From Lacibacter sp. H407 (GTDB lineage: Bacteria; Bacteroidota; Bacteroidia; Chitinophagales; Chitinophagaceae): a stretch of DNA of 64,000 nucleotides. The notes under the pieces were generated by a model, which ran no database searches, had not been told where the DNA came from, and saw only the letters and a program-made list of their open reading frames with translations. The DNA lies in assembly GCF_037892605.1 (NCBI RefSeq), contig NZ_JBBKTU010000001.1, positions 248,001 through 312,000 of the forward strand. The letters run 5' to 3'. A program made the translations under genes and the position numbers. Shown here in pieces: positions 28,269 to 43,279 of the stretch. Each line of letters starts with the position of its first letter. The stretch's first letter is position 1.

Positions 28269-28820
28269 ATGATTGAACCGGGTACAGGCATATTATTGAT
28301 TTCCGATCCATTTTTAAAAGATCCCAACTTTATGCGTACGGTTGTGTTGCTTTGTGAACACAAAGACGAAGGCAGTTTTGGGCTGGTGATCAACCGTACA
28401 TTTGAACAAACACTCGATCAATTGATCACGGAACTGGAGGGCTATTCTGTTCCCGTACATTATGGCGGTCCAGTTCAAATGGATACGCTGCATTTTTTGC
28501 ATCAACTGCCCGATGAAATTCCCGGCGGACAAGCCATTACAAAAGACATTTATTGGGGAGGCGATTTTGAAATGGTGATCAGCATGTTGAAAAAAGGTAC
28601 ACTCGACCTTGGCAAGATCCGTTTTTATCTTGGCTACAGCGGCTGGGGCAATGGACAACTCACTGATGAGATGAAAGAAAAAAGCTGGCTAACGGCAAAC
28701 GCTACCCGAAAACTCGTGTTTCAAACCGATATCGATCATATCTGGAAAGAATCCGTTAAATCAATGGGCGGTGAATTTGAACAATTGATCCACTACCCCA
28801 TCGACCCGCAGTTAAACTAA
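28269..28820 (+). CDS. YqgE/AlgH family protein
   Basis: The product is a 183-residue protein of the YqgE/AlgH (DUF179) family. Typical segments are GTGILLISDPFLKDPNFMRT at the N-terminus, SFGLVINRTFEQTL, HYGGPVQMDTLHFLH and FYLGYSGWGNGQL. The family has a conserved fold, but its biochemical role is not settled. The 3' end overlaps the 3' end of the phosphorylase gene on the other strand by 9 nt. Confidence 0.93.
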   Translation: MIEPGTGILLISDPFLKDPNFMRTVVLLCEHKDEGSFGLVINRTFEQTLDQLITELEGYSVPVHYGGPVQMDTLHFLHQLPDEIPGGQAITKDIYWGGDFEMVISMLKKGTLDLGKIRFYLGYSGWGNGQLTDEMKEKSWLTANATRKLVFQTDIDHIWKESVKSMGGEFEQLIHYPIDPQLN

Positions 28821-29639
28821 GCCTTCAATTAACGATGCAAACAAGGTACTGAGTTTTTCGTCCGCCTTACCTGCCACTTCAATGATCTCGGCAATATTTA
28901 CCGGCTTTAAATTTTCGGGATCACATTCATCTGTAATCACACTTACTGCCAAACATTTTAAACCGATCTGGTTGGCAACAATTACTTCCGGTACCGTACT
29001 CATGCCCACCATATCTGCACCGGTGCTGCGCAACCATCTGTACTCTGCTCTTGTTTCCAGGTTTGGCCCCATCACTGCAACATAAGTCCCTTTGTGTAAT
29101 GGAATATTTTGCTCCGTTGCTTTTTGTAACATGCGTTGTTGTAATGAAGCATCATACGGCGCACTCATATCAACAAATCGTTCACCCAACGAAGGATCGC
29201 TCAATCCACGCAATGGATTATCAGGAAGCATATTGATATGATCATCGATGAGAATAAGATCGCCTTTTTTGTAATGGAGATTCATACCACCGGCAGCGTT
29301 ACTCAACAGCAGTGTTTCAACACCCAATGCTTTCATTACACGAATAGGGAACGTAACCTGTTGCATACTATACCCTTCATAATAATGAAACCTTCCCTGC
29401 ATGGCAATTACCTGCACACCTCCAATTTTGCCGTATAATAAATTTCCTTTGTGAAACTCAACGGTAGCTTGTGGAAAATGAGGGATATCGGTATAAGGAA
29501 TCGTGAGCTCCACCTCTATTTTATTAACCAATGCTCCAAGCCCGGTACCAAGTACAATACCCACCACCGGCTTTGCTTTCATACCCCGTTCTGCTAAAAA
29601 AGAAGCTGATTCCTGAATTGCTGCAACAATATTGTTCAT
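28812..29639 (-). CDS. punA: Purine nucleoside phosphorylase, possibly adenine-nucleoside type
   Basis: This is a trimeric-type purine nucleoside phosphorylase of 275 residues, which cleaves purine nucleosides with phosphate. Landmarks are VLGTGLGAL (29-37), RFHYYEGY (83-90), GPNLETRAEY with Glu195 and VGMSTVPEVIVA (211-222). The base-site residue that is Asn243 in mammalian PNP is Asp237 here (SVITDEC). In known enzymes Asn favours 6-oxopurines, while Asp at this site (MTA phosphorylase, or the engineered N243D human enzyme) accepts adenine nucleosides. The gene is divergent from the arsenosugar operon with only 56 bp between them. It might remove adenine from the ArsS product, or simply serve purine salvage. 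Confidence 0.93.
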   Translation of the reverse strand: MNNIVAAIQESASFLAERGMKAKPVVGIVLGTGLGALVNKIEVELTIPYTDIPHFPQATVEFHKGNLLYGKIGGVQVIAMQGRFHYYEGYSMQQVTFPIRVMKALGVETLLLSNAAGGMNLHYKKGDLILIDDHINMLPDNPLRGLSDPSLGERFVDMSAPYDASLQQRMLQKATEQNIPLHKGTYVAVMGPNLETRAEYRWLRSTGADMVGMSTVPEVIVANQIGLKCLAVSVITDECDPENLKPVNIAEIIEVAGKADEKLSTLFASLIEGLV

Positions 29640-29651
29640 TCGTTGTATTAA

Positions 29652-29679
29652 TTGAGTTATTTATTAATCTATAATTTTC
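29652..29679 (+). promoter_or_regulatory. Possible Bacteroidota-type promoter of the arsenosugar operon
   Basis: TTG at 29652-29654 and TAATTTTC at 29672-29679 are 17 bp apart, close to the Bacteroidota form TTTG, about 19 bp, TAnnTTTG with one mismatch in the -7 element. It lies 16 bp before the first ATG of the operon. The 56-bp region must also hold the divergent punA promoter. The match is weak. Confidence 0.3.
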
Positions 29680-29695
29680 CCACTTACGTATATCC

Positions 29696-30970
29696 ATGAA
29701 AATAGGTTTTTTGCGATTACGACCCTTCTTCATACTGTTTCTTTTTCCGGCATCCCTTGTATCGGCTCAGAACGGATACAAAACGGGTGATGCTGTGCAA
29801 AACTTTCCCATCAACAAAACACTGAACCAGGAAAAACCTGCCACGAACTTCAATTCGTTACAGGATGACATTACGATTCTTGACTTTTTTGGCACATGGT
29901 GTGTTCCCTGTATCAAAGCAATACCACAGCTTGTAAAAATCCAGGAGAAGTTTAAAGATAAGCTGACGGTTGTTCTGGTATCAAATGAAGAAGAAGCAAG
30001 ATTACAGAAGTTCCTTGCGGCAAGAAAAGATTTTGCTTTCCCGATTGTTTCGGATGCAGATAACAGCATTACCAATTTATTTCAGCCGCCAGCCTACCCC
30101 TATACCATCATTTTGAAAGATGGAAAGATCATTGCCATTACAGAAGCTGAAAAAATTACAGAGGAAGCAGTTGCTAACTGGATGAAAGGAGAAAAGCAAC
30201 CGATCGAAGAACAGAAAACGACAAGTGTACCAACCACGAATTACAATGAAGTGATGAATACAAAAACACGCAGCAAAAATGTGTTAGTAAAACTGTCGCA
30301 GGATTATATCTATGCTGCAAAAACAGGCGAAAGCACTGCGGCATTGGAAGAACAACTCCGGTCGATCACAATCACTGATCTGCAAAACAAATTAAGTACG
30401 GATGATGAGAAGAAAGCATTCTGGATCAATCTTTATAACGGTTATGTACAGGCTGCTTTGCAAAAGAATCCTGATGCTTACAAAAGCAGAAGTGCATTCT
30501 TCAAAAGCAAGCAAATCACTATTGCAGGATTGCAGTTAAGTCTTGATGATATTGAACATGATTTTCTACGTCGTTCAAAAATTAAATGGAGCGGCGGCTA
30601 TCTTAATAAACTTTTTCCCGGTAAAACTGAAAAGGAATTACGTGTAAAGAAATTAGACTATCGTTTACACTTTTCGCTGAATTGTGGAGCGAAAAGTTGT
30701 CCGCCGATTGCTTTTTATAATCCTGAAAACTTACATCAACAATTGGATATTGCAGCAACTGCTTACTTAACCGGCGAAGCGGAATATGATAAGCAAGCAA
30801 ATACCATGAAGCTTCCTGCTATTATGGGATGGTTCCGGAAAGACTTTGGCGGCAAGAAAGGAATGATCCGTTTGCTGAAAGAAAAAGCGATTATACCAAC
30901 TGATGTGAATCCGAAAATCAAATTCAAATCATACGACTGGACATTATACTTAAACAATTATCAGAACTAA
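29696..30970 (+). CDS. Secreted thioredoxin-like/DUF547 fusion protein
   Basis: The product has 424 residues and two modules behind a signal peptide (about 1-25, ending VSAQN). The first is a TlpA-like thioredoxin domain (about 30-165) with the active-site motif GTWCVPC and the cis-Pro segment PPAYPYTIIL. The second is a DUF547 domain (about 190-410) with AFWINLYNGYV, LDDIEHDFLR and HFSLNCGAKSCPPIAFY. DUF547 resembles cysteine-peptidase or transglutaminase folds but its activity is not established. It heads the arsenosugar operon, 10 nt before the AhpD-like gene. A role in periplasmic thiol or arsenical redox chemistry is an inference. Confidence 0.9.
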   Translation: MKIGFLRLRPFFILFLFPASLVSAQNGYKTGDAVQNFPINKTLNQEKPATNFNSLQDDITILDFFGTWCVPCIKAIPQLVKIQEKFKDKLTVVLVSNEEEARLQKFLAARKDFAFPIVSDADNSITNLFQPPAYPYTIILKDGKIIAITEAEKITEEAVANWMKGEKQPIEEQKTTSVPTTNYNEVMNTKTRSKNVLVKLSQDYIYAAKTGESTAALEEQLRSITITDLQNKLSTDDEKKAFWINLYNGYVQAALQKNPDAYKSRSAFFKSKQITIAGLQLSLDDIEHDFLRRSKIKWSGGYLNKLFPGKTEKELRVKKLDYRLHFSLNCGAKSCPPIAFYNPENLHQQLDIAATAYLTGEAEYDKQANTMKLPAIMGWFRKDFGGKKGMIRLLKEKAIIPTDVNPKIKFKSYDWTLYLNNYQN

Positions 30971-30980
30971 AACCAACATC

Positions 30981-31316
30981 ATGCACAATCATTATTACAA
31001 CGCAGAAGATCTCGGCAAATTTGGAAAGATCGGTGAATACCAAAAAGACCTGGCAGATAAATTCTTCGCATGGTACGGCGCCACATTTGCAGACAGTGCT
31101 CTAACAGCAAAAGAAAAATCATTGATCGCTTTGGCAGTAGCACATGCCGTGCAATGTCCCTATTGTATTGATGCATACAGCAGCGATGCATTTGAAAAGG
31201 GTTGGGATGAAGCGCAAATGATGGAAGCAGTGCATGTAGCGGCAGCCATTAAAGGCGGTGCAGCATTGGTGCATGGTGTGCAAATGATGAACAAGGTGAA
31301 AGAGATCGCTATGTAA
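30981..31316 (+). CDS. AhpD-like arsenosugar biosynthesis-associated protein
   Basis: The product is a 111-residue protein of the carboxymuconolactone decarboxylase/AhpD fold. The redox motif is CPYC (Cys59 and Cys62) in VAHAVQCPYCIDAYSS, as in alkylhydroperoxidase AhpD. It corresponds to the 'arsenosugar biosynthesis-associated peroxidase-like' family, in which some members carry selenocysteine; here both residues are Cys codons. It lies between the thioredoxin-DUF547 gene and arsS. It could reduce pentavalent arsenicals or protect the radical SAM enzyme, but the substrate is unproven. Confidence 0.9.
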   Translation: MHNHYYNAEDLGKFGKIGEYQKDLADKFFAWYGATFADSALTAKEKSLIALAVAHAVQCPYCIDAYSSDAFEKGWDEAQMMEAVHVAAAIKGGAALVHGVQMMNKVKEIAM

Positions 31317-31357
31317 AACCAGACCCAACGAATTACCAACCATCAATTACTCAACAG

Positions 31358-32425
31358 ATGAGCAGCAACACGAAATCATTAAAGGCACAGGGAAACAGTT
31401 TGGCAGATGTACATGAGCAGATCGAGATTTTAGAACATGGTTATAACGGCAACGAATATCGTCTGGTACCTTTTCAGCAAAAACTAGAGAGCATTGGTCT
31501 GTATCCATTACTGTCAACACAATTGGAAATATTCCAGATCAACGTTGGTAAAATGTGTAACCAGGTGTGCAAACATTGCCATGTGGATGCAGGCCCCGAC
31601 CGTAAAGAGATCATGACCCGTGAAACCATGCAGTTGTGTCTGGATATACTTGCAGCCAATCCTTCATTTAAAACAGTTGACCTTACAGGCGGTGCACCGG
31701 AATTGAATCCGGATTTCCGTTGGTTTGTGGAAGAGATCAAAAAGCTTGGGAAGCATATCATCGTCCGTTGTAATCTCACCATCATTCTGGCAAATAAACG
31801 TTTTCATGACCTGCCTGATTTTTTCAAACAGCATCAAATAGAAGTTGCCTCATCTCTTCCCTCCTATTCAAAAGACCGTACAGACCGTCAGCGTGGTGAT
31901 GGTGTATTTGAAGATTCGGTGAAAGCATTACAAATGTTAAATGCAGTTGGTTATGGAGTGGAAGGCACGGGGTTAATTCTGAACCTTGTTTACAATCCCG
32001 CCGGAGCTTTTTTACCGGCACCACAAAACGCTTTGGAAAAAGAATACAAAGCAGCGTTGAAAAAAGATTTCAATATCGTTTTCAATTCGTTGTTTACGAT
32101 TACAAACATGCCTATCAGCCGTTATCTCGATTACCTGTTGCAAACAGAAAACTACGAGAAGTATATGGAAAAACTGATCGCTGCATTTAATCCGGCTGCT
32201 GCTTCAAACGTGATGTGCCGAACAACACTTTCCATTGGCTGGGATGGTTATATCTATGATTGTGATTTCAACCAGATGCTGGAAATGAAAGTATCGTGTA
32301 AAGGATCGCAGCATTTATCAACCTTTAATGCAGCAGCATTAACTAACAGAGAAATTATCATCAACCAGCATTGCTATGGCTGCACAGCCGGTATGGGCAG
32401 TAGTTGTGGAGGCGCTGTAGCCTAA
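31358..32425 (+). CDS. arsS: Arsenosugar biosynthesis radical SAM protein ArsS
   Basis: ArsS is the radical SAM enzyme that joins a 5'-deoxyadenosyl group to dimethylarsinous acid, the committed step to arsenosugars. It has 355 residues. The iron-sulfur motif CNQVCKHC has Cys67, Cys71 and Cys74. VDLTGGAPELNP is the SAM-side GGE-like segment. The C-terminal DUF3641 region ends in HCYGCTAGMGSSCGGAVA with Cys339, Cys342 and Cys350, probably extra cluster or substrate ligands. Some relatives have selenocysteine in this tail; here it is Cys. The order arsS followed within the operon by arsM supports the call. Confidence 0.95.
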   Translation: MSSNTKSLKAQGNSLADVHEQIEILEHGYNGNEYRLVPFQQKLESIGLYPLLSTQLEIFQINVGKMCNQVCKHCHVDAGPDRKEIMTRETMQLCLDILAANPSFKTVDLTGGAPELNPDFRWFVEEIKKLGKHIIVRCNLTIILANKRFHDLPDFFKQHQIEVASSLPSYSKDRTDRQRGDGVFEDSVKALQMLNAVGYGVEGTGLILNLVYNPAGAFLPAPQNALEKEYKAALKKDFNIVFNSLFTITNMPISRYLDYLLQTENYEKYMEKLIAAFNPAAASNVMCRTTLSIGWDGYIYDCDFNQMLEMKVSCKGSQHLSTFNAAALTNREIIINQHCYGCTAGMGSSCGGAVA

Positions 32426-32505
32426 TTGAAAACCGTTTATATAGTTGATTTTTAAAAACCGCATGCACAATTATTTCGTTTATACGTAGGCGTAATAACT
32501 GTGGT

Positions 32506-35500
32506 ATGGCGAAACAATTTTCGGTAATTCATTATAATAAATCATTCCTGCTTATTCTCACAAAGCGATTTGTTGTTGTAACTGTATTATCGTTTCTTTT
32601 TGTTTTACCAACAATTGCGCAGGTTACAAGTGCCGGTATACGTGGTACTGTAAAAGCGGAAAATGGTGAAGAGCTTGAAAAGATCACGGTGCAGGCAATT
32701 CATGAACCAACAAGATCAATTTATACAACCGCTTCGCAAAAAGGCGGTACGTACAACTTACCCAACCTCAAAAGCGGTGGTCCTTATACACTCATTTTTT
32801 CCTATATCGGTTTTGCGGGTGATACACTTACAGATATTCAATTAAGTTTAGGCAACACCGAAACTATCAACACTGTGTTGCAACCACTTGCTACAACATT
32901 AGACGATATTATTATCAGAAGTAATAAAAAAATCATTCGCAGAACCGGTGCCGGCACTTCTATTTCAAAAAGCCAGATTGAAAATTTTCCTACCATCAGC
33001 AGAAGCCTGCAGGATTTTACACGGTTAAGTCCGCAGGCAAATGGTAACAGTTTAAGCGGCACCAATTACCGATACAATAATTTAAGTATTGATGGCGCTG
33101 CATTGAACGATGCTTTTGGTTTTACTGAACCTGCAAGCGGTGCAGGTGGATCATTGGCATCGGGCACGCCGGGTGGTTTAGCAAAAACACAACCGATCAG
33201 TTTAGAAGCCATACAGGAAGTACAGGTAGAAGTATCGCCTTACACCGTTACATTGGGGAATTTTACAGGCGGCAGTATCAACGCTGTTACAAGAAGTGGT
33301 ACGAATCAATTTTCAGGTTCTACATTTTTCTCCGGAAGAAATCAATGGTTAACGGGACCTACTGCAGATGCAAAACGTCAACGCATTGAAAACTTTTCTG
33401 ATTATCAAACCGGCTTTCGTTTAGGCGGCCCCATTGTGAAGAATAAACTTTTCTATTTTACAGCTATTGAAATTGCCAGAAGAAACGAACCTGTTGCATT
33501 TGCACCAGGCAGCGATGGATCAGCGATACCGTTTGCACTTGCAAAAGCATTGTACGATACGGTTCTATCCCGTTACAATTATGATCTTGGCTCTTATGAA
33601 GATGTCACCTTAAAGATCAACAGCGATAAATTTTTTATGAAGCTGGATTGGAATGTGAACAGTGTACATAAGCTGAGCATCCGGCATAATTATGTACAGG
33701 CATTTGCAGATAACAATGAACGTTCAGCCAATATTCTCAACTTCGGCAGCCAGGGCTTTCGGCACAACAGTAAAACGCATAGTGCCGTGTTTGAAGCAAA
33801 ATCAAATTTCTCCGACCGTTTGTCCAATAACCTGATCATCGGATTTACAAATACAAAAGATGAGCGCCAAATCAAAGGAGATCTGTTCCCACATATTGAA
33901 ATTACTTACAACACTGCCAACACTATTTACCTGGGTGCTTACCGTGAAGCAGCGGTATATGGATTGAATTTAAAAACACTTGAACTTACGGATAACCTTA
34001 CGTTCTACCGAAGAAAACAAACGATCACCATTGGCACGCACAATGAATTTTACAATATCGACTATCGCTTTCTTACAGCTTTTAACGGAAGATGGGCTTA
34101 CAGAAGTGTAGATGATTTTTATGCCGATAAGCCAAGCCGCATACGTGGCGTGTACAACTTGCAGAATAACGATTATGAATTCAACCGCAACAATCCATCA
34201 GCCAGTTTTCGTGTGTTTTTATTGAGTCAATACATACAGGATGAAATTGCGGTAACAAAAAACTTACGTGTAACAGCAGGCATCCGTTTTGATTTTACAG
34301 CTTACCCCGACAGGCCTAATGTAAATCCCGATGTAACAAAAACAAAAGGATTCGAAAACTTTTCAAACAGTAACAACCCATATCCGCAAATTGCACCAAG
34401 AATCGGTTTCAACTGGAATATTAATGGAACGCAACAACTTGTTGTAAGAGGTGGAAGCGGCATCTTCAATGGTCGTATGCCATTTGCATGGCTTGCCTAT
34501 CCGTATTACAACAGTGGTACAACATATGGCAATGTAGATTTTCGTCCAACAACAAATGTTCCGTTGATCAACGATGTATCACAGATCGCTGCCACGTATC
34601 AGCCCGGCATACGGGAGATCAATTTGCTTGATAACAATTACAAACTGCCACAGGTATTCCGTAACAGTTTAGGGATTGATTTCAAAACTGAAAATGGATG
34701 GTCAATATCTGCTGAAGCTGTTTATACAAAAACATTGAATGATGTTTTGTATAAAACCATCAATCTCAAAGACAGCACCGCCAGCTTAACCGGAGCAGGT
34801 GATAACAGAACGGTGTATCTTGGAAATGGAAATGCACAAAAGCTGAATCCTTCATTCACCAATGTATTCCTGCTCACCAATACCAACCAAGGTTACCGCT
34901 ATCAACTTTCTGTTACAGCTGGAAAGCGCATCAAAGCATTTCAATTTTTTACTGCTTACACTTATGGCGTATCAAAAGATGTTTCCAATGGTGTGCGTGT
35001 TTCACCACAAGCGAATTGGGAATTCAATCAAACGATTTTACCGAATGCCCCGCAGTTATCTTATTCTAACTTCGATCTGCGTCATCGAAGCATCAGCAAT
35101 CTTCAATACAATCAAAAATGGAAACACAGCAGTGTAAATGTGATCTTTGTTTACACGCTGCAATCCGGCAGTCCGTTTACCTATACCTATATTGGCGACA
35201 TAAACCGTGATGGTTCGCCCAATAACGATCTGATCTATATTCCACGCAATCAAATTGAAAGTAACCTGGTTGATATAAAAGATGCAGCCGGAACTATTGT
35301 AACAACTGCTGCTGCACAATGGGAACAGTTGAATAACTATATCGAACGTGATCGCTATCTCAGGAAACGAAGAGGCCAGTATGCAGAGCGAAATGGAGCC
35401 CGCACTCCCTGGAATCAGCAACTTGATATGAAGGTTACGTATTCGATACAATTAGGTTCCGAAGAACAAAAGCATACACTTGGCTTTTCACTGGATGTAT

Positions 35501-35712
35501 TTAATCTTTCCAATCTTATTTCGAGAAACTGGGGACGGCAATATTATGTGCCCAATATTTTAAACAGCAGTTACCAATTACTCACTGTTGCAAGAGTGAA
35601 CAGTTCATTACAACCGGAATTAAATTTTTCGAATCCGCAAACAACAGCCTGGCAATACGATGCACTGATCTCCAGAGCGCAGGGGTTATTCAGTATTCGT
35701 TACAGCTTTTAA
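32506..35712 (+). CDS. TonB-dependent outer-membrane receptor in the arsenosugar operon
   Basis: This is an outer-membrane receptor of 1068 residues. A signal peptide ends near residue 38 (VLPTIAQ). A carboxypeptidase-regulatory-like domain follows (about 46-120, IRGTVKAENGEELEKITV), then a plug with TGAGTSISKSQIENFPTIS and VSPYTVTLGNFTGGSINAVT, and a barrel of the 'Oar-like' type ending in IRYSF. It is not a SusC/SusD pair, since no SusD gene is nearby. An 80-bp gap separates it from arsS, and the PiT permease gene begins 9 nt after it. The ligand could be a phosphorylated or arsenic compound; nothing in the sequence proves this. Confidence 0.93.
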   Translation: MAKQFSVIHYNKSFLLILTKRFVVVTVLSFLFVLPTIAQVTSAGIRGTVKAENGEELEKITVQAIHEPTRSIYTTASQKGGTYNLPNLKSGGPYTLIFSYIGFAGDTLTDIQLSLGNTETINTVLQPLATTLDDIIIRSNKKIIRRTGAGTSISKSQIENFPTISRSLQDFTRLSPQANGNSLSGTNYRYNNLSIDGAALNDAFGFTEPASGAGGSLASGTPGGLAKTQPISLEAIQEVQVEVSPYTVTLGNFTGGSINAVTRSGTNQFSGSTFFSGRNQWLTGPTADAKRQRIENFSDYQTGFRLGGPIVKNKLFYFTAIEIARRNEPVAFAPGSDGSAIPFALAKALYDTVLSRYNYDLGSYEDVTLKINSDKFFMKLDWNVNSVHKLSIRHNYVQAFADNNERSANILNFGSQGFRHNSKTHSAVFEAKSNFSDRLSNNLIIGFTNTKDERQIKGDLFPHIEITYNTANTIYLGAYREAAVYGLNLKTLELTDNLTFYRRKQTITIGTHNEFYNIDYRFLTAFNGRWAYRSVDDFYADKPSRIRGVYNLQNNDYEFNRNNPSASFRVFLLSQYIQDEIAVTKNLRVTAGIRFDFTAYPDRPNVNPDVTKTKGFENFSNSNNPYPQIAPRIGFNWNINGTQQLVVRGGSGIFNGRMPFAWLAYPYYNSGTTYGNVDFRPTTNVPLINDVSQIAATYQPGIREINLLDNNYKLPQVFRNSLGIDFKTENGWSISAEAVYTKTLNDVLYKTINLKDSTASLTGAGDNRTVYLGNGNAQKLNPSFTNVFLLTNTNQGYRYQLSVTAGKRIKAFQFFTAYTYGVSKDVSNGVRVSPQANWEFNQTILPNAPQLSYSNFDLRHRSISNLQYNQKWKHSSVNVIFVYTLQSGSPFTYTYIGDINRDGSPNNDLIYIPRNQIESNLVDIKDAAGTIVTTAAAQWEQLNNYIERDRYLRKRRGQYAERNGARTPWNQQLDMKVTYSIQLGSEEQKHTLGFSLDVFNLSNLISRNWGRQYYVPNILNSSYQLLTVARVNSSLQPELNFSNPQTTAWQYDALISRAQGLFSIRYSF

Positions 35713-35721
35713 ATCCACCAC

Positions 35722-36702
35722 ATGACGATCCTCTTATTTCTTGCTGTGCTTTTACTTACATACGCCAATGGTGCGAATGATAATTTTAAAGGAACTGCTA
35801 CTTTATGGGGAAGTGGTACGTTGAATTACAAGCAAGCACTGTTACTTGCCACACTATTTACATTTGCCGGATCGATCTGTTCCTATTTCCTGGCAAACGG
35901 TTTGGTAAAAAATTTTTCGGGTAAAGGTTTGGTGCCCGATGAAATATTACAAACGAAAGAATTTGTATTAGCCGTTGCAGGCGGCACCGGCATTACTATT
36001 TTACTGGCAACGTTTTTAGGTTTTCCTGTTTCAACCACACATGGGTTAGTAGGTGCATTGGTTGGTGCAGGTATTGTAGCAGCAGGCAGCAAGGTTGATC
36101 TGAGTGTATTGGGCAAAACATTTTTTCTTCCCTTACTATTCAGTCCGTTGATCGCCATTCTTATAACAGGCATTCTGCATAAAATCATTTCCACAACAAA
36201 GAAAACCGACTATACTGTTGCTGGATTATCCATAACAGGCAACGGATCGTTTCTTAACCCGCTTCACTATGTCAGCGCAGGCGTTGTAAGTTTTGCAAGA
36301 GGGTTGAACGATACACCTAAACTCATTTCACTGCTATTACTTTCAACATATTTCAGTATGCCCATCAACTTTTTACTACTTGCAGTTGTAATGGCAATCG
36401 GAGGATTGATCAATGCACGCAAAATTGCTGAGACCATGAGTAAAAAAATTACAAGGCTTTCACCCCAACAGGGATTATTGGCGAATATGGTTACCGGCAC
36501 AATGGTGATCATGGCCAGTAAGTTTGGGTTACCCGTTTCTACCACACATGTATCTGTTGGTAGTATTTATGGCATTGGTCTTTCTGCAAAAACTGCCGAT
36601 AACAAAGAAATAGCGAAGATCGGATTATCATGGCTACTCACATTGCCAATTGCAGCCATCATCAGTGCAACCATTTATTTTATTATATCGTATATCAACT
36701 AA
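35722..36702 (+). CDS. PiT-family anion permease
   Basis: This is an inner-membrane permease of the PHO4/PiT family with 326 residues and about nine to ten hydrophobic helices. It shows the two inverted family halves: YANGANDNFKG with FPVSTTHGLVGALVGAG in the first and SFARGLNDTPKLISLL with LPVSTTHVSVGSIYG in the second. The signatures differ from classical PitA, which has GANDVANAFG, and the protein is shorter, since PitA is near 500 residues. Its place 9 nt after the TonB receptor and 24 nt before arsM suggests transport of phosphate, arsenate or an arsenosugar-related anion. Confidence 0.93.
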   Translation: MTILLFLAVLLLTYANGANDNFKGTATLWGSGTLNYKQALLLATLFTFAGSICSYFLANGLVKNFSGKGLVPDEILQTKEFVLAVAGGTGITILLATFLGFPVSTTHGLVGALVGAGIVAAGSKVDLSVLGKTFFLPLLFSPLIAILITGILHKIISTTKKTDYTVAGLSITGNGSFLNPLHYVSAGVVSFARGLNDTPKLISLLLLSTYFSMPINFLLLAVVMAIGGLINARKIAETMSKKITRLSPQQGLLANMVTGTMVIMASKFGLPVSTTHVSVGSIYGIGLSAKTADNKEIAKIGLSWLLTLPIAAIISATIYFIISYIN

Positions 36703-36726
36703 ACTCACCATCAAATAAAAAAGACA

Positions 36727-37701
36727 ATGAGCACTACTTATCTCGAAACAACAAAAAATGTTTACAAAGAAGCCGCTGAAAACCCGCAAGTTGGTTTGTG
36801 CTGCACCACTACACCCATTTGGCAATTGCCAGGATTAGATATTCCGGTGCGTATGCAACAGATGAATTACGGATGTGGCAGTACCGTTCATCCAAGAGAT
36901 CTCGTAAAGAATCCACGAATACTGTATGTTGGCGTTGGCGGAGGAATGGAGTTGTTGCAGTTTGCCTATTTCAGTCGCCAGTTGAACGGTGTTATTGGTG
37001 TTGATGTAGTGGATGAAATGTTGCAGGCGAGCCGTGATAATTTTGTGGAGGCTGAACGTTTGAATCCGTGGTTCCGTTCAGAGTTTGTAGATCTGCGTAA
37101 AGGTGATGCATTGAATTTGCCGGTTGAAGACAACAGTATTGATGTGGCTGCACAAAATTGCCTCTTCAATATTTTTAAACAGGAAGAATTGAAACTGGCA
37201 TTAGAAGAAATGTATCGTGTGTTGAAACCAAGAGGCCGTTTGGTGATGAGTGATCCAACCTGTGAGCAGGATATACCGGAGAACCTCCGTGAAGATGAAC
37301 GTTTGCGTGCTTTGTGTTTGAGTGGTTCTTTACCATTGTGGGATTATGTGAAGATGATCACTGATGCTGGATTTGGTACTGTTGAAATAAGAGCGAAGCG
37401 TCCGTATCGTATTCTTGATCCAAAGAATTATGATACCAATGAATTGCTCTTTATTGAAAGTGTGGAAGTGTGTGCCATTAAAGATCCGATGCCTGCTGAT
37501 GGACCTTGTGTGTTTACCGGTAAAACAGCAATTTATTTTGGAAATGAAGAATGCTTTGATGATGACAATGGACATGTCTTGTTGCCCAACCAGCCGTTGG
37601 CGGTGTGCGATAAAACTGCGGCAGCATTGGCTTCATTAAACCGTGAAGATATTTATATTTCAGGATCTACCTGGTTTTACGACGGTGGTGGATGCTGCTA
37701 A
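36727..37701 (+). CDS. arsM: Arsenosugar-type arsenite methyltransferase ArsM
   Basis: This is a SAM-dependent methyltransferase of 324 residues that methylates arsenite to mono- and dimethylarsenicals, the feedstock for ArsS. The SAM motif is LYVGVGGGMELLQFA (67-80), followed by IGVDVVDEML. Candidate arsenic-binding cysteines are Cys25-Cys26 (VGLCCTTTP), Cys50 (MNYGCGSTVHP), the Cys in AAQNCLFNIF, and the C-terminal GGGCC. The N-terminal layout differs from the eukaryote-like ArsM and matches the form found with arsS. The glycosyltransferase gene starts 13 nt downstream. Confidence 0.92.
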   Translation: MSTTYLETTKNVYKEAAENPQVGLCCTTTPIWQLPGLDIPVRMQQMNYGCGSTVHPRDLVKNPRILYVGVGGGMELLQFAYFSRQLNGVIGVDVVDEMLQASRDNFVEAERLNPWFRSEFVDLRKGDALNLPVEDNSIDVAAQNCLFNIFKQEELKLALEEMYRVLKPRGRLVMSDPTCEQDIPENLREDERLRALCLSGSLPLWDYVKMITDAGFGTVEIRAKRPYRILDPKNYDTNELLFIESVEVCAIKDPMPADGPCVFTGKTAIYFGNEECFDDDNGHVLLPNQPLAVCDKTAAALASLNREDIYISGSTWFYDGGGCC

Positions 37702-37714
37702 TGCGAAAACTTAC

Positions 37715-38341
37715 ATGACGAAAAAAGCGATTATTGTATTTGTAAAAAATCCCGAACCGGGAAAAGTAAAAACAAGATTAGCAAAGGATATCGGCGATGC
37801 TGCAGCGGTTGACGTTTACCGTCAGTTGCTGCGGCATACGCATGATGTACTGGTACCAGTTTCTGCAGGTAAATTTATTTTCTATGCAGATGAGATCAAC
37901 CGTCTAGATCTGTGGGAAACAAATTCGTTTTACAAACAACTGCAGCATGGAAATGATTTGGGCGAACGGATGCAACACGCTTTTTCATTTTTGTTTGAAC
38001 TAGGCTATGAGCGTGTGCTCATTATTGGCAGCGATTGTCCACAACTTTCCACCGTACATCTGAACCATGCATTTGAATTGTTAGAAACACATGATGTTTG
38101 TATTGGCCCTGTTGATGATGGTGGTTATTATTTACTCGGCTTGCGTGCTGTTCATCTGCCTTTCTTCAGTAACAAAGCATGGAGTACCGACAGTGTTTAC
38201 AGCAGCACCATCAACGATGCAACAGAAGCAGGATTAACGGTTGCTGTAACCGAACAGTTAAGAGATGTAGATACGCTTACTGATTGGGAAGAGTTGAAAG
38301 AATTGCTTGATTATCAGAAAGCTTCGCCAATAGTAAAATAA
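37715..38341 (+). CDS. TIGR04282-type arsenosugar biosynthesis glycosyltransferase
   Basis: The product has 208 residues and a nucleotidyl/glycosyltransferase-like fold (DUF2064, CofC-like). Landmarks are IIVFVKNPEPGKVKTRLAK at the N-terminus, LIIGSDCPQLS in the middle and IGPVDDGGYYLLGL near the acceptor side. The family co-occurs with ArsS and is thought to act on the sugar part of arsenosugars. The ATG at 37715 gives the family-like N-terminus; an upstream in-frame start at 37643 would overlap arsM. Its 3' end overlaps the convergent gene by 28 nt. Confidence 0.92.
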   Translation: MTKKAIIVFVKNPEPGKVKTRLAKDIGDAAAVDVYRQLLRHTHDVLVPVSAGKFIFYADEINRLDLWETNSFYKQLQHGNDLGERMQHAFSFLFELGYERVLIIGSDCPQLSTVHLNHAFELLETHDVCIGPVDDGGYYLLGLRAVHLPFFSNKAWSTDSVYSSTINDATEAGLTVAVTEQLRDVDTLTDWEELKELLDYQKASPIVK

Positions 38342-39390
38342 AAAGCGGTTGAATTTTTCCCGAAACCTGCATCTAAACGCAGGTTTATTTTTTCGGCAGG
38401 GTTTAATGCAAATCGAAGTCCGGCACCGTACGTTGTACGAATCTTTTCAGCCATATTTTTCAGTTGATCATTTACTGCACCTGCATTGGCGAACACCGTT
38501 CCCCCAAATCGTTTGTAGATCTTAAAACGATATTCTGTTCCAGCTGCCAGGAGATTTTTATCCCGGTAGCGCCCTTCATAAAACCCACGCATTTTTTTAT
38601 TACCACCCAGCAATGCCAGTTGACTGAACGGTACATTTCCATCAACCATATCTGCAAACAGATTAAAGGCCCACACATTTTTTCGTTTGGTTGAAAGATA
38701 TGTAGATGCATCAAGTGTATATCGGTTGTATTGATAATTGCTGCCTGTTGCATTGCCATAAAACTGTGCACCTGCATCAACAAACACCCCTGAGCCGGCA
38801 TAGAAAATATTATCACGGGTATCGTAATTCAATGCGGGGCCAATACCTGAAATAAAGCTTCGTGTACTTCCTTCGATTGTACCAGATGAAAGTTGCTTGC
38901 CCGGTTCTGTTTCCACCACACGATAATCTTCCAACCAATAACGTAAGCCTGCATATAGCTTTGGATTGATCTTACGCAACACATTCAATCGCACTCTTGG
39001 ATAGTTTACTTTGTATAATTCTTTGTAATCAGCTGGCTGATCATTTCCAATGCCGAAAAAATAATAAGAGTATTTATAATAACCTATTTCGCCATAAGCA
39101 GTGAACTTGCTTCCAGGTGTGTAAATACGAAACGGTGCATACAATAACAGTTGTTTATTAAATGTGTAAGCAGCCCCAAACTGCACTTGAGAAGGATAAC
39201 GTTGTGCCGTATCTTTTTTATTCCGGAATGTATAGGCTGCAAATCCACCAACAGCCACACTTGTTTCAGGTGAATAGAACACAACAGGAAACGCCGTTAA
39301 ACGACGAGGTTTATTTTTTCTGCTGCTGTCTTGCGAAAAAACATTTGCTGTAAAGAAGAAGACGATGACTGCAGAAAAAATAAACCTCAT
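38314..39390 (-). CDS. Omp85/BamA-like outer-membrane barrel protein
   Basis: The product is a 358-residue outer-membrane protein with a signal peptide (about 1-20, ending ANVFSQ). The rest is a beta-barrel of the bacterial surface antigen (Omp85 C-terminal) type, with PALNYDTRDNIFYAGSGVFVD, LLGGNKKMRGFYEGRYRDKN and a C-terminal FYFTIGEAF ending in an aromatic residue. POTRA domains are absent, so it is not a full BamA or TamA. It overlaps tail to tail with the glycosyltransferase gene of the arsenosugar operon and is followed upstream by the VOC gene on the same strand. Confidence 0.85.
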   Translation of the reverse strand: MRFIFSAVIVFFFTANVFSQDSSRKNKPRRLTAFPVVFYSPETSVAVGGFAAYTFRNKKDTAQRYPSQVQFGAAYTFNKQLLLYAPFRIYTPGSKFTAYGEIGYYKYSYYFFGIGNDQPADYKELYKVNYPRVRLNVLRKINPKLYAGLRYWLEDYRVVETEPGKQLSSGTIEGSTRSFISGIGPALNYDTRDNIFYAGSGVFVDAGAQFYGNATGSNYQYNRYTLDASTYLSTKRKNVWAFNLFADMVDGNVPFSQLALLGGNKKMRGFYEGRYRDKNLLAAGTEYRFKIYKRFGGTVFANAGAVNDQLKNMAEKIRTTYGAGLRFALNPAEKINLRLDAGFGKNSTAFYFTIGEAF

Positions 39391-39406
39391 AATTGTGTTG
39401 CGCCTG

Positions 39407-40465
39407 CTACACTTTTACCCTCGAGAAACTGAGACTTTTTACCATCCAGTTGGGTAACGGTTTTTCAGGCTTCCTGTTTTTTAAGTTTAAATACCATCCT
39501 ATTTTTTTCAGGATCGGCACACGATGTGTTTCCACATATTCGATCCATGTACCATCCGGATCTTCATTGTATGAAAAGTGACCGGCTGCTTCGCCCATAT
39601 CAAAACTGTTGGCACTGTCAACAGTGAATGGAAAACCATTTTCATTGCAGATGCGTTCATGTTCTTCGTAACCATTAATATCAAAGCACACATGAATATA
39701 TCCCTGATCGCCCCATAAACGATTTTCAAAAATTTGTTTTGGTGTGCGGTCTGTTACTTCAATCAACTCAACATAGGTTGGGCCGAGTAATTTTGAAAAT
39801 GCGCCTTCCTGTTTACGTGTATGTCCGAGCATCACACGTTTGAAATTGTGTTGCCCGCCGGGTATGTTGCTGAACTCGTCGTAATGTCCTTCATCCAAAA
39901 ACAATTGCTTATCGTAACCCAATACTTTTTCATAAAACGGAATTGCTTTCGCTATTGAAATAACGCCGATGGTTACGCCACAAACACCACCTGTATGTCG
40001 TCCTGTATCGCTGAACCAGTTCTCATCCGCCATTACTTCAAAGATGTTGCCGTATGGATCTTTCAGAAAGAATGATTCAATGCCACCCGGATTTTCTTTT
40101 GGTGCACTCAACAGATTTAAACCTGCTTTCTGATATTCAGCATAGGCAGCCTTTACATTTTTACATTTGATCTTGATCACGAAAATGCCTGTGTCGCCCA
40201 ACTGCACTTCAAATGCTGCCGGTTGCGATTTACGGCTGCGGTATTCCCAAATTTCGAAACCGCCTCCACCCTGCATATTCAATGCAAGAATTGCATAACG
40301 CTCATGTCCTTCGCCACCGGTATAACGCTTCATCAACTCTGCACGGGCAGCATCTTTAAACACCACCACATCGGTGCCGAAATGTTTGTTATACCAGATA
40401 AATGCTTCATCCGCATTTGTTACACCGATTCCTACCTGCTGAATACCACTGATGATCCGTTTCAT
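39407..40465 (-). CDS. Two-domain VOC (glyoxalase/dioxygenase-like) protein
   Basis: The product has 352 residues and two vicinal-oxygen-chelate modules. The first begins QVGIGVTNADEAFIWYNKHFG and ends SFFLKDPYGNIFEVMAD. The second begins GVTIGVISIAKAIPFYEKVLG and ends HFSYNEDPDGTWIEYVETH. The layout resembles 4-hydroxyphenylpyruvate dioxygenase and related enzymes, but the HPPD C-terminal signature is missing. VOC proteins include the C-As lyase ArsI, though ArsI is smaller with a thiol pair not seen here. Its position between the barrel gene and a TIGR04283 glycosyltransferase gene hints at the same pathway; the substrate is unknown. Confidence 0.85.
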   Translation of the reverse strand: MKRIISGIQQVGIGVTNADEAFIWYNKHFGTDVVVFKDAARAELMKRYTGGEGHERYAILALNMQGGGGFEIWEYRSRKSQPAAFEVQLGDTGIFVIKIKCKNVKAAYAEYQKAGLNLLSAPKENPGGIESFFLKDPYGNIFEVMADENWFSDTGRHTGGVCGVTIGVISIAKAIPFYEKVLGYDKQLFLDEGHYDEFSNIPGGQHNFKRVMLGHTRKQEGAFSKLLGPTYVELIEVTDRTPKQIFENRLWGDQGYIHVCFDINGYEEHERICNENGFPFTVDSANSFDMGEAAGHFSYNEDPDGTWIEYVETHRVPILKKIGWYLNLKNRKPEKPLPNWMVKSLSFSRVKV

Positions 40466-40513
40466 TGAACTTATTTTTATTTACGAAAGCGTGAAGATAT
40501 TAGTTTTTTGTAT

Positions 40514-41200
40514 TTACCAATTCAGTAAGCGTTTGTAGGCAACAGCCATCTCTTCCTGCGAGGCTCCCTTTCGATACATGGCTATGATTTTGCGATGGGC
40601 CGTTTGCACTTTCCACCAACTGTTCTTATCGTATTTGCGGGCTGAGATCAGCGCAGATTTACGGAGAATTTTATAGCGCCCCTGTTGCCTCGCCCGTTTT
40701 ACAAACTCATAATCTTCCATAACCCGCATATCATTTCGATAACCACCAGTAGACTGGAATAGTTCTTTTGTAATAAACAAGGTCTGGTCACCGCCATAAC
40801 AAATAAACCAATCGAACCGGGTAAACCATGCGTTGATTGATAAAAACCATTTGTTGCTGTTGAATTTTGTTCGGTAACGCCCGAGTGCAAATCCATCCCG
40901 GATTGCCTGTTGAATATCGGCTGCAAAACTTTGCGGAGGAAACACATCAGCATGTACAAAATAAAAGACTGAACCACTTGCTCTTGATGCACCATAGTTT
41001 AACTGGGCACCTCTGCCCTTTTGTGGCGATACAACAACCGTTGCTCCTGCTTTCGCTGCTTCGTCTTTTGTTGCATCGGTACTGGCAGCATCACATACAA
41101 TGATTTCCTCCAGCAAAGAGCCGCCATGCTGCTTCAGGTAAGTTACCAGCGCTGCAATGGTTTGTTCTTCGTTGTAAACAGGAATGATAACTGAGATCAT
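40514..41200 (-). CDS. TIGR04283-type arsenosugar biosynthesis glycosyltransferase
   Basis: The product is a 228-residue family 2 glycosyltransferase of GT-A fold. The N-terminus ISVIIPVYNEEQTIAALV is typical. The acceptor/donor region has VCDAASTDATKDEA, QLNYGASRASGSVFYFVHAD and a later VMEDYEFVKRARQQGRYK. This family co-occurs with ArsS and the TIGR04282 transferase. The ATG at 41200 gives the family N-terminus; a longer form would need a TTG at 41230. It is on the strand opposite to the arsS operon, 48 nt upstream of the VOC gene. Confidence 0.9.
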   Translation of the reverse strand: MISVIIPVYNEEQTIAALVTYLKQHGGSLLEEIIVCDAASTDATKDEAAKAGATVVVSPQKGRGAQLNYGASRASGSVFYFVHADVFPPQSFAADIQQAIRDGFALGRYRTKFNSNKWFLSINAWFTRFDWFICYGGDQTLFITKELFQSTGGYRNDMRVMEDYEFVKRARQQGRYKILRKSALISARKYDKNSWWKVQTAHRKIIAMYRKGASQEEMAVAYKRLLNW

Positions 41201-41240
41201 GCAAACAAAATTGGGGATGAAGATAGGCAAGGCGCAGAAA

Positions 41241-41274: not shown

Positions 41275-43167
41275 TTAGTCGAGTTGTAATTTCTTTTCCT
41301 TTGGGTATTTTACGTTGTACTTCATTTCCATTTTCTTCAATTGCTTTGGATCAATGGTATAAGTCCAAGTGATGATCTTTGTCTCGTCATTTAACTTTCC
41401 TCCATCATATTTCAGATCACCCACTTCAATTTCTTTGATTGTTGAAATAGGGAACTGATCTTCCACAATAATATTCACCGGCACATTCTTGTTATTGCGA
41501 ACAGTTATTTCATAATGCTTGGTATCGGTACGATTGCTACCGAGGAATTTCTTGTTGCTGAATTCTTTCAACAACGTTCGTTTAACGGTGATACCCTTAT
41601 CAACTCCCAATGAAAGTGATAACGTATCAGAATCGGTTGACAGATCGAGGTAGGATTTACCAAGGAATGTTCCTTCAAAAAACAAATTGGTTTCGCCGGG
41701 AATTAAATTAAGATCCTGCCAATTAATAAGCTTGGCTGTGAGGTATGCAGCTTCATCCAGTTTTGGTGCAGCGTAGTATTCATAATATGCTTCAATACTT
41801 TTATCATTGATGCTCATCGTATTTACTTTGCCATCGTTATTCACCGTTGCGATTTCCTGTATTTCGTATTGTGTAGTGATGGGTTGAAAAGTAGTAATAA
41901 CCTGCAAAGGGGTTGATTTGTTTTCCATTTTCAATGATGTTTTTCCTCTTACTTGTATACCCGGAACTGCCCCAGCCAAATCATTTGAAGTTCCATAGCC
42001 AACCACAACTACTTCCTGCAGATTATTATTCATAGGTTTCATAGCCACACTAACAAAACTTCTTCCTGCTGCAAATTCATAAGCTTCATACCCAACTGAT
42101 GATACAACTAATGATTGTGTATTTCCATTTGCTTTGATGCGGTAAAATCCATTCGCATCCGTTGTGGTGTTTTGTGTTGTTCCTTTCACTGTTACGATTG
42201 CACCCGGGACTGGTATTCCTTTATCATCCGTTACTCTTCCCATTAACATTTGATCGCTGCCGCTGATGGTCCATTGCTTCATATAATTACTCATCTGTGC
42301 ATCTACATAAGATATAAACCATGGATTGATCAATGGTTTTGAATTATTATCATTCGGATTACCGGTTGATAAAACCAGTTTGATGTTGTTCCAGTTCTCA
42401 CCGCTTGTTTGATACACATTCGCATTCATTTCAAGTTGCAGCTTGCTCACCACATCTTTCACACGGATATTATAAGTAGGATACCAGCCAGCTTTTTGCA
42501 CGAGATAAGTTATTTCAAACGGAACGGTTGCTGTTTCCTTTACATCAACGAGAATGACAATTTCATTGGTAGAGAGATCGATCTTTCTGCTCATTTCTGC
42601 CAGTTGATTCGAAAGTTTGTTTCGTTCCTTGTTCATCTCTTCGATCTCTTTTTGCAACGTCAGTTCTTGTTTCAATACTTCGGTTAATCGTGTTCTTTGA
42701 AAATCGAGTGATTGTCTTAATTCTTCTGGCTTCAATGTAACAGTTGATCCTGCTATCTGCTGGTTCTTGATCAGCATTGCTTCTTCCTGTTTAAATACTT
42801 CCAGCACTTTAGATGTAAGACTGATCTTGTCATTCAGCTGAAAGAATTTCTCTTGCGTTGTTTTGATCTCTTCCCGTACTTCCTGTTCTTTTAAATAATC
42901 ACGTTGAACACGCACCGATAAAATAGTGAGTCTGCCATCGGCTTTCACCTGCACACTTTGCTTTTCAATATCGGTGGAGATACCGGTGAACACGATCTCC
43001 TGCTTACCTGCAGAGATGGATTGTTTCACGGTTCGCTTTACCTGTGCCCCTTTCGTAAACACAGTTACCTGTTCCATTTTTGTTTCAACAGGAACACGTT
43101 TTACTGATTGAGCAACTACTGTAATTGGAAGAACATAAAGAAGAAATTGCAGCCATTTCGTTTTCAT
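41275..43167 (-). CDS. DUF4139 (mucoidy-inhibitor-like) protein with a SusC-like insert
   Basis: The product has 630 residues and a signal peptide (ending ITVVAQS). The N-terminal DUF4140 part has VTVFTKGAQVKRTV; a coiled-coil follows (about 95-200), and then DUF4139 with VPFEITYLVQKAGWYPTYNIR and the end QFPISTIKEIEVGDLKYD. Between about 310 and 430 an insert looks like a CarboxypepD_reg domain (LMGRVTDDKGIPVPGAIVTV), followed by the SusC-type motif EVVVVGYG. The start at 43167 is an ATG; the frame opens further only from a TTG. The family is linked to envelope or exopolysaccharide traits, but its activity is unknown. Confidence 0.88.
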   Translation of the reverse strand: MKTKWLQFLLYVLPITVVAQSVKRVPVETKMEQVTVFTKGAQVKRTVKQSISAGKQEIVFTGISTDIEKQSVQVKADGRLTILSVRVQRDYLKEQEVREEIKTTQEKFFQLNDKISLTSKVLEVFKQEEAMLIKNQQIAGSTVTLKPEELRQSLDFQRTRLTEVLKQELTLQKEIEEMNKERNKLSNQLAEMSRKIDLSTNEIVILVDVKETATVPFEITYLVQKAGWYPTYNIRVKDVVSKLQLEMNANVYQTSGENWNNIKLVLSTGNPNDNNSKPLINPWFISYVDAQMSNYMKQWTISGSDQMLMGRVTDDKGIPVPGAIVTVKGTTQNTTTDANGFYRIKANGNTQSLVVSSVGYEAYEFAAGRSFVSVAMKPMNNNLQEVVVVGYGTSNDLAGAVPGIQVRGKTSLKMENKSTPLQVITTFQPITTQYEIQEIATVNNDGKVNTMSINDKSIEAYYEYYAAPKLDEAAYLTAKLINWQDLNLIPGETNLFFEGTFLGKSYLDLSTDSDTLSLSLGVDKGITVKRTLLKEFSNKKFLGSNRTDTKHYEITVRNNKNVPVNIIVEDQFPISTIKEIEVGDLKYDGGKLNDETKIITWTYTIDPKQLKKMEMKYNVKYPKEKKLQLD

Positions 43168-43279
43168 AAACAATTGTTTTATGAACGATGGATGCAGGAA
43201 AAAGGACAATTACATAACCTAAACACAAGCCTTGTTAAACAACAAAATACTTTAGCTGAATTTAATTCGTTAAACCAAC

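Follow-up and report, generated by a model that had tools for sequence, protein, structure and literature searches.

It has long been asked whether organisms make arsenosugars to detoxify arsenic or because the products are useful. The chemistry of the radical SAM enzyme ArsS is reportedly owed to work by Cheng et al. in 2021. Arsenic methyltransferases make methylarsenicals, and a radical SAM enzyme adenosylates arsenic in the biosynthesis of oxo-arsenosugars (PMC12159101). Arsenate enters cells via phosphate transporters (PMC6176005; PMC12608789), and according to the second of these papers it is largely unknown how small organic arsenicals are taken up. The locus described here lies in a 64,000-nucleotide stretch (the window; G000:C1:248001-312000) of the 4.87 Mb genome of Lacibacter sp. 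H407, a member of the Bacteroidota. At this locus, genes for arsenosugar biosynthesis share a run with a TonB-type outer-membrane receptor and an inner-membrane permease of the PiT family, which probably form a recruited two-membrane uptake route belonging to the pathway.

The first-pass annotation of this DNA had described an arsenosugar gene order with tight spacing (9-80 nucleotides), and this was confirmed by reading the genes and by curated-family searches. Every gene that it named between positions 28812 and 41200 was found complete, and the order is as described. The forward-strand run begins with a protein of AhpC-TSA/thioredoxin-like (Trx) and DUF547 domains (29696-30970), whose N terminus is signal-peptide-like by eye, followed by the AhpD-like arsenosugar-associated protein TIGR04169 (30981-31316; 174.5 bits in NCBIfam, cut-off 120) and ArsS (31358-32425; TIGR04167, 447.2 bits, cut-off 300). 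The Oar-like TonB-type receptor (32506-35712) and the PiT permease (35722-36702) come next. The run ends with an ArsM of the arsenosugar type (36727-37701; NF038099, 569.4 bits, cut-off 400) and a TIGR04282 protein (37715-38341; 205.3 bits, cut-off 134), which is named a glycosyltransferase and also matches CofC nucleotidyltransferase models. The gaps are, in order, 10, 41, 80, 9, 24, and 13 nucleotides, the last of these if TIGR04282 starts at the ATG at 37715 and not at the GTG at 37643, where its longest frame begins. From this spacing we infer that the run is a single transcript. A Bacteroidota-type promoter pattern had no match in 29640-29695, and the whole window gave 15 matches versus 39 expected by chance. 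The congeneric genomes G583 and G693 keep the entire gene order. Because they do so, and because the clades of the receptor and of the permease are both linked to such loci, the arrangement is considered to go beyond chance.

The permease passes the PiT model PF01384 (210 bits, cut-off 33.7) and stays below the cut-off of the PitA model NF033774 (66 of 800 bits); its predicted fold matches that of TmPiT (6l85). Searches of 32 chosen genomes and of a 395-genome sample of the phylum (the latter to E 1e-25) gave scores in two separate ranges, at least 278 bits for locus-type permeases and about 100 bits or below for the others. In a tree of 38 PiT proteins, the 15 locus-type ones stand on one side of a single branch with 100/100 support, recovered in 100% of 200 bootstrap trees. 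The other 23 were matches of 50-150 bits and more than 300 amino acids, with fragments and repeats left out, and the tree program flagged L266 (from genome G152) as a long branch. Locus-type permeases are 45-96% identical to that of the window, compared to 26-35% for the other PiTs in the searched genomes, and they come from families f1, f5, f9, f17, and f35 and from named Hymenobacter, Gaetbulibacter, Kordia, Tenacibaculum, and Vicingaceae records. All 15 contain two GxND and two STTH motifs, and residues K23, R193, P199, and N255 are invariant in the clade.

These permeases are also linked to arsenosugar genes by position. ArsM is the direct neighbour of 12 of the 15; the two from named Hymenobacter records are three genes away from it, and that of G072 adjoins only the receptor. 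In the phylum sample, whose genomes were not chosen by locus, ArsS is above its cut-off in 156 of 395 genomes; a locus-type PiT occurs in five, all with ArsS (Fisher p 0.009, or 0.023 without the Lacibacter genome itself). Four of the five adjoin ArsM (the window, G134, G152, and G019), and in G134 the permease is part of a run that also holds TIGR04282, phosphorylase, ArsM, DUF547, and TIGR04283. No locus-type PiT was found in the congeneric genomes G547, G601, G711, and G727, which have no ArsS.

The frequency of each gene was determined at arsS loci. ArsS is above cut-off in 141 of 396 sampled genomes of the order, and 201 loci were read in all: 120 hand-chosen regions (mostly those with enough flanking contig, plus every listed one from the same family), 80 retained from 587 confirmed stretches, and the window itself. 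Removal of near-copies at 95% ArsS identity left 189, of which 151 extend 7.5 kb or more to either side, so that absences are lower bounds. Genes were labelled by their best phmmer matches to single window proteins at E 1e-5. The AhpD-like protein is present at 174 of the 189 loci, TIGR04282 at 80, TIGR04283 at 64, ArsM at 58, the phosphorylase and the Trx-DUF547 protein at 49 each, and a VOC relative at 18. PiT occurs at 10, a receptor of any clade at 9, members of the receptor clade described below at 5 (a sixth, L217, was dropped as a near-copy), and the Omp85 barrel at 5. This means that receptor, PiT, and barrel are optional additions to arsenosugar loci. About 1.5 loci would be expected to carry any PiT, assuming two PiTs per genome (binomial p 3e-6). 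Relatives of the genome's own ArsR, ArsC-like protein, and ACR3 are found at 6, 2, and 1 of the 189, making PiT commoner than ACR3 at the loci read. Co-occurrence of the envelope genes with arsS was the comparison by which the first-pass annotation had proposed to put its view at risk; with PiT, receptor, and barrel all recurring, the view withstood it.

The receptor matches the barrel model PF25183 (158.9 bits, cut-off 30) and CarboxypepD_reg (59.5 bits, cut-off 32.3), with no separate plug-domain match (PF07715) at E 0.001. Membership in SusC/RagA (TIGR04056) was rejected, there being no NCBIfam match at E 0.001. Only four receptors exceed 1000 bits in the 396 order genomes (those of the window, G583, G693, and G758), and the next listed one scores 859; the G758 receptor lies directly after ArsM. 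Among 66 genomes of the class (26 with ArsS and 40 without), the three best receptors, those of G072, G312, and G088, all come from genomes with ArsS, and genomes without it mix in from the fourth match on. The G072 receptor adjoins PiT; those of G312 and G088 are roughly 6 kb away from arsS.

In a tree of 26 receptors, the nine linked ones form one clade with 100/99 support, drawn from four families and having arsS, arsM, TIGR04282, or PiT as neighbours. The clade comprises three receptors of the genus itself, G758 (f2), G088 and L217 (Flavobacteriaceae type; L217 in the order ArsS, ArsM, receptor), and L172, L179, and G072 (Hymenobacter type). L179 and L172 are loci of Hymenobacter glacialis and H. 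lapidiphilus, respectively, and contain ArsM, ArsS, receptor, and PiT. Twelve receptors of the same family as Lacibacter, hand-picked from the listed matches and with no arsenosugar gene within the roughly 2 kb per side read at first, fall outside it. The window receptor is 39-48% identical to receptors outside its own genus, whether in the clade or not. The idea that every receptor near arsS goes back to one ancestor was rejected, since L037, L097, L142, and L148 branch elsewhere, and a linked group that included L142 and L148 would need three changes on the tree.

The sister branch of the clade has seven members (G665, G747, G751, G253, G033, G516, and G535), five of which share a stretch with their genome's DUF47-PiT pair. 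The distance is 0.7 kb in G253, about 1.5 kb with one gene between in G751, and about 8 to 19 kb in G033, G747, and G516. The two shortest distances are striking; the association is loose in the last three of the five, with an RND pump, SusCD, cytochrome bd, and other genes intervening, and three further sister rows (G567, G703, and G697) were left out of the comparison. Because the sister receptors lie near DUF47-PiT genes and the locus has a PiT of its own, these positions suggest that the arsenic receptor-PiT pair may have arisen from a phosphate-type pair and that the substrate may be an oxyanion, points used here only as a hint.

Taken together, the receptor and PiT are very probably true members of the locus. 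The first-pass annotation had proposed that receptor, permease, and barrel are all dedicated to arsenosugars; this is supported for the first two, which fall in locus-linked clades across several families, while the barrel recurs more loosely, mostly beside TIGR04283.

A second import-type set is found at other loci. At 12 of the 189 (L048:13390-19449, L063, L076, L079, L091, L106, L107, L108, L116, L128, L213, and L214), a divergent sodium:solute symporter (PF00474, 30.7 bits, cut-off 22.8) occurs with SusC- or SusD-type genes, often directly before AhpD-ArsS. Relatives of the L048 symporter, 54-100% identical with the query's own genome included, were present in 18 of 40 genomes with ArsS and 0 of 40 without (Fisher 3e-7; the test took 80 of 88 genomes initially named). 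Members of family f2 are disproportionately common among the positives; with f2 excluded, the counts are 7 of 23 and 0 of 38 (p 6e-4). In 12 of the 18 positive genomes the symporter lies within 6 kb of ArsS. Because a second, unrelated outer-plus-inner-membrane set tracks ArsS, an uptake role at arsenosugar loci generally becomes likelier.

The permease also has relatives on proteobacterial plasmids. Among 136 plasmid records with any PiT match, the best two are from Acinetobacter portensis (41.8% identical) and Cupriavidus sp. KK10 (36.4%), and both of those plasmids carry ArsS, which is present in 52 of 72,556 plasmid records. The Acinetobacter order is ArsS, TVP38/FAD oxidoreductase, DUF547, TIGR04283, TIGR04282, methyltransferase, and PiT; after PiT, on the opposite strand, lie genes annotated as methylthioadenosine (MTA) phosphorylase and sterol desaturase family protein. 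In Cupriavidus, PiT is followed by a gene resembling ArsM and by ArsS, and genes similar to TIGR04283 and TIGR04282 come later in the stretch. In its motifs the Acinetobacter PiT agrees letter for letter with that of the window (GANDNFKG and RGLNDTPK), and the Cupriavidus PiT matches partly. Priestia plasmids carry PiTs of about 35% identity without ArsS. A search of the plasmids for the receptor gave no clade-like member, the best match being 40% identical.

The uptake route would supply the first step of the pathway. In the proposed scheme, the imported arsenic compound would most likely be arsenate, a methylated arsenate, or another oxyanion; the receptor would bring it through the outer membrane, and PiT would move it across the inner membrane, as PiT proteins move phosphate. 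After reduction, ArsM would methylate the arsenic to dimethylarsenic, to which ArsS would add a 5'-deoxyadenosyl group. Adenine would then be removed from the ArsS product, a 5'-arsenic adenosine, by the purine nucleoside phosphorylase encoded at 28812-29639 on the reverse strand (NF006054, TIGR01700), divergent from the forward run and 56 nucleotides away from it. This protein also matches MTA phosphorylase models, below their cut-offs. Its gene lies inside the interval delimited by the first-pass annotation but went unmentioned in that reasoning, and the same phosphorylase family is also found inside arsenosugar runs of Flavobacteriales. The CofC-like TIGR04282 protein would activate the arseno-ribose phosphate, and the TIGR04283 glycosyltransferase (40514-41200, reverse strand; 216.2 bits, cut-off 182; ATG at 41200, longest frame from TTG at 41230) would transfer it to an acceptor. 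As judged from the genes and their phylogeny, the probability that the receptor and PiT import an arsenical, and that this is an arsenosugar biosynthesis locus with its own recruited two-membrane uptake route, is put at roughly 0.55.

Several observations weigh against this reading. Most arsenosugar loci have neither a PiT (present at 10 of 189) nor a member of the receptor clade (5 of 189), and two other ArsS plasmid stretches that were read have no PiT. The two partners are not always together, as G088 and G758 have the receptor and no locus-type PiT, and L033, L043, and Flavobacteriales loci have PiT with no receptor in view. A point against a strict operon view comes from G072, G134, and G152, three of the five phylum-sample genomes, in which PiT lies away from the arsS place. 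Part of the linkage was also built into the sampling: 11 of the 15 PiTs entered the tree because they were found at arsS and 4 came from locus-blind searches, while 7 of the 9 clade receptors were found because they lie at arsS, G758 and G072 being the exceptions. L037, L097, L142, and L148 are receptors near arsS outside the clade, and show that receptors can sit there by accident or through separate recruitment. In addition, the NCBIfam model nearest to the permease is that of the sulfate permease CysP (NF053884, 95.9 bits, cut-off 400), a match far below threshold, which makes arsenate only a candidate for the anion carried. Finally, an Oar receptor of Myxococcus is required for protein secretion (PMC6434023).

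The Myxococcus case bears on the strongest alternative, in which receptor, permease, or barrel would export arsenosugars or arsenolipids, or salvage arsenosugars released by others. The barrel is an Omp85-superfamily protein (38314-39390, reverse strand; PF01103, 77.5 bits, cut-off 24) which does not reach the subfamily NF047779 (98 of 200 bits). It ends the reverse-strand run of TIGR04283, a two-domain VOC/glyoxalase-fold protein (39407-40465; Glyoxalase/VOC Pfam match), and barrel, which faces the forward run and overlaps the 3' end of TIGR04282 convergently by 28 nucleotides. A relative at E 1e-30 is present in 36 of 56 chosen genomes. Neighbourhoods were read for 16 of the 17 best matches: three belong to the genus itself, six lie directly beside TIGR04283 (L302-L306 and L310), L301 lies beside Trx-DUF547 and TIGR04282, and L313 lies beside ArsS. 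L312 is near Trx-DUF547 in a genome without ArsS, and L307, L308, L309, and L311 have none of these arsenosugar-type neighbours. The barrel is thus genuinely linked to the locus, but less tightly than receptor and PiT, and chiefly to TIGR04283, the late glycosyltransferase; it could possibly help put a product into the outer membrane. The frequent pairing with that glycosyltransferase fits a role in product traffic, and the SusCD and sodium symporter genes of other arsS loci would suit an organic substrate. Nevertheless, PiT proteins as a family import anions, and PiT here is next to ArsM, which acts at the start of the pathway and not at its end; in 28812-41230, moreover, none of the genes was recognised as belonging to a known export family. 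Traffic of products is an unlikely explanation. Of the first-pass suggestion of an uptake-to-export system, the import half is strengthened by the families involved (PiT, TonB-type receptor, and SusCD-sodium symporter); its export half found no support here.

About as improbable, by a slight degree more so, is a role in phosphate supply or discrimination, with the pair importing phosphate and rejecting arsenate, either feeding phosphorolysis or keeping phosphate flowing during arsenic processing. Such a role would explain why the PiT fold and motifs are kept, why sister receptors lie near DUF47-PiT genes, and why a phosphate-using nucleoside phosphorylase belongs to the locus; the Acinetobacter plasmid PiT, moreover, adjoins a phosphorylase as well as a methyltransferase. 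However, the Lacibacter genome already has a housekeeping PiT beside a DUF47-like gene, and the locus PiT has no adjacent DUF47 partner. Of the 15 Bacteroidota PiTs, 12 have ArsM as a direct neighbour, and in the DNA read around them none of those 12 has the phosphorylase next to it.

Transport of sulfate, thiosulfate, or another oxyanion for the sulfur or redox supply of the pathway is improbable, more so than either of these. The sulfate permease model is the best NCBIfam match, if a sub-threshold one, and rhodanese-like proteins (PF00581) lie near arsS at 24 loci, four of which have PiT (L206, L211, L220, and L229). By contrast, no sulfur gene was recognised in the window operon, and a rhodanese of this kind is not in view at six of the 10 PiT loci. 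In their own right, the rhodanese-like proteins, absent from the window, are encoded directly after ArsS at 18 of the 24 loci (for example L224:11029-11547 carries one near arsS), and they may serve sulfur or redox steps, perhaps with thio-arsenicals. Chance neighbourhood without functional link was tested by the PiT and receptor searches, trees, and counts, and is disfavoured as very improbable: TonB-type receptors are common in Bacteroidota and four lie near arsS outside the clade, but the excess of PiT over the expected 1.5 loci, and a clade-specific linkage that persists across families despite changed gene order, are hard to reconcile with it.

Other genes were observed in the surroundings of these loci. 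In Flavobacteriales clusters, a fatty acid hydroxylase-like protein occupies or lies near the PiT position (L127:6625-7506, L211, L224, and L226; PF04116 was tested on L127, and the others were assigned by similarity). Together with the plasmid sterol desaturase, such proteins suggest a possible link to arsenolipids. Within the window, a MuiA-family protein (41275-43209, reverse strand) matches TIGR02231 in two stretches, and a stretch of about 110 residues in it gives a sub-threshold match to the N-terminal part of SusC/RagA receptors. An IS200-like Y1 transposase (PF01797; 55549-56010, forward strand) lies between two genes of the NADH:quinone oxidoreductase type.

Genes for arsenic detoxification are placed elsewhere in this genome. 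Family searches found no ArsR, ArsC, or ACR3 in 28812-41230. Just past the window end, at G000:C1:~313442-315524 (L314), lie separate genes for ArsR, an ArsC-like protein, and ACR3 (G000:C1:314490-315479), with the gene of a major-intrinsic-protein channel on the opposite strand; the ArsC-like name was given by eye, with no Pfam match. The congeners G583 and G693, which have the full arsenosugar operon, gave no ACR3 match, ArsB and ArsP not having been searched for.

Classical detoxification loci carry efflux pumps, whereas the loci described here carry importer families that are tied to them by phylogeny. Close relatives of the receptor and PiT, wherever they were read, have arsenosugar genes next to them or elsewhere in the genome, which suggests that the cell may take arsenic in deliberately and not only dispose of it. 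If the import reading is true, bacteria have a dedicated arsenic acquisition system. A broader and more tentative view, held at somewhat less than even odds, is that some Bacteroidota actively scavenge trace arsenic, that their loci independently recruited unrelated import modules, and that arsenosugars are wanted products and not only a means of poison disposal. In addition, if the import reading holds, the PiT clade, whose invariant substitutions fall in a fold of solved structure, would offer a way to learn how a transporter might discriminate arsenate from phosphate. A literature search, with subscription papers mostly outside it, found no paper with both arsenosugar and TonB.

Compared to known systems, the locus combines familiar parts in a distinct arrangement. 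Arsenic resistance operons of the type ArsR-(ArsC)-ACR3 also handle arsenic, but are separate from the arsenosugar locus. Oar-like receptors with PF25183 and CarboxypepD_reg are alike in domain make-up, and the window receptor differs from them in belonging to a locus-linked clade beside arsenosugar genes. TmPiT and the bacterial DUF47-PiT pairs are like the window PiT in fold and motifs, while the window PiT belongs to its own clade with the invariant K23, R193, P199, and N255, has no DUF47, and adjoins ArsM. The biosynthetic genes are of known families, with ArsM, ArsS, TIGR04169, TIGR04282, and TIGR04283 all above their cut-offs as in described arsenosugar clusters, and the window locus is set apart from those clusters by the added receptor and PiT of locus-linked clades.

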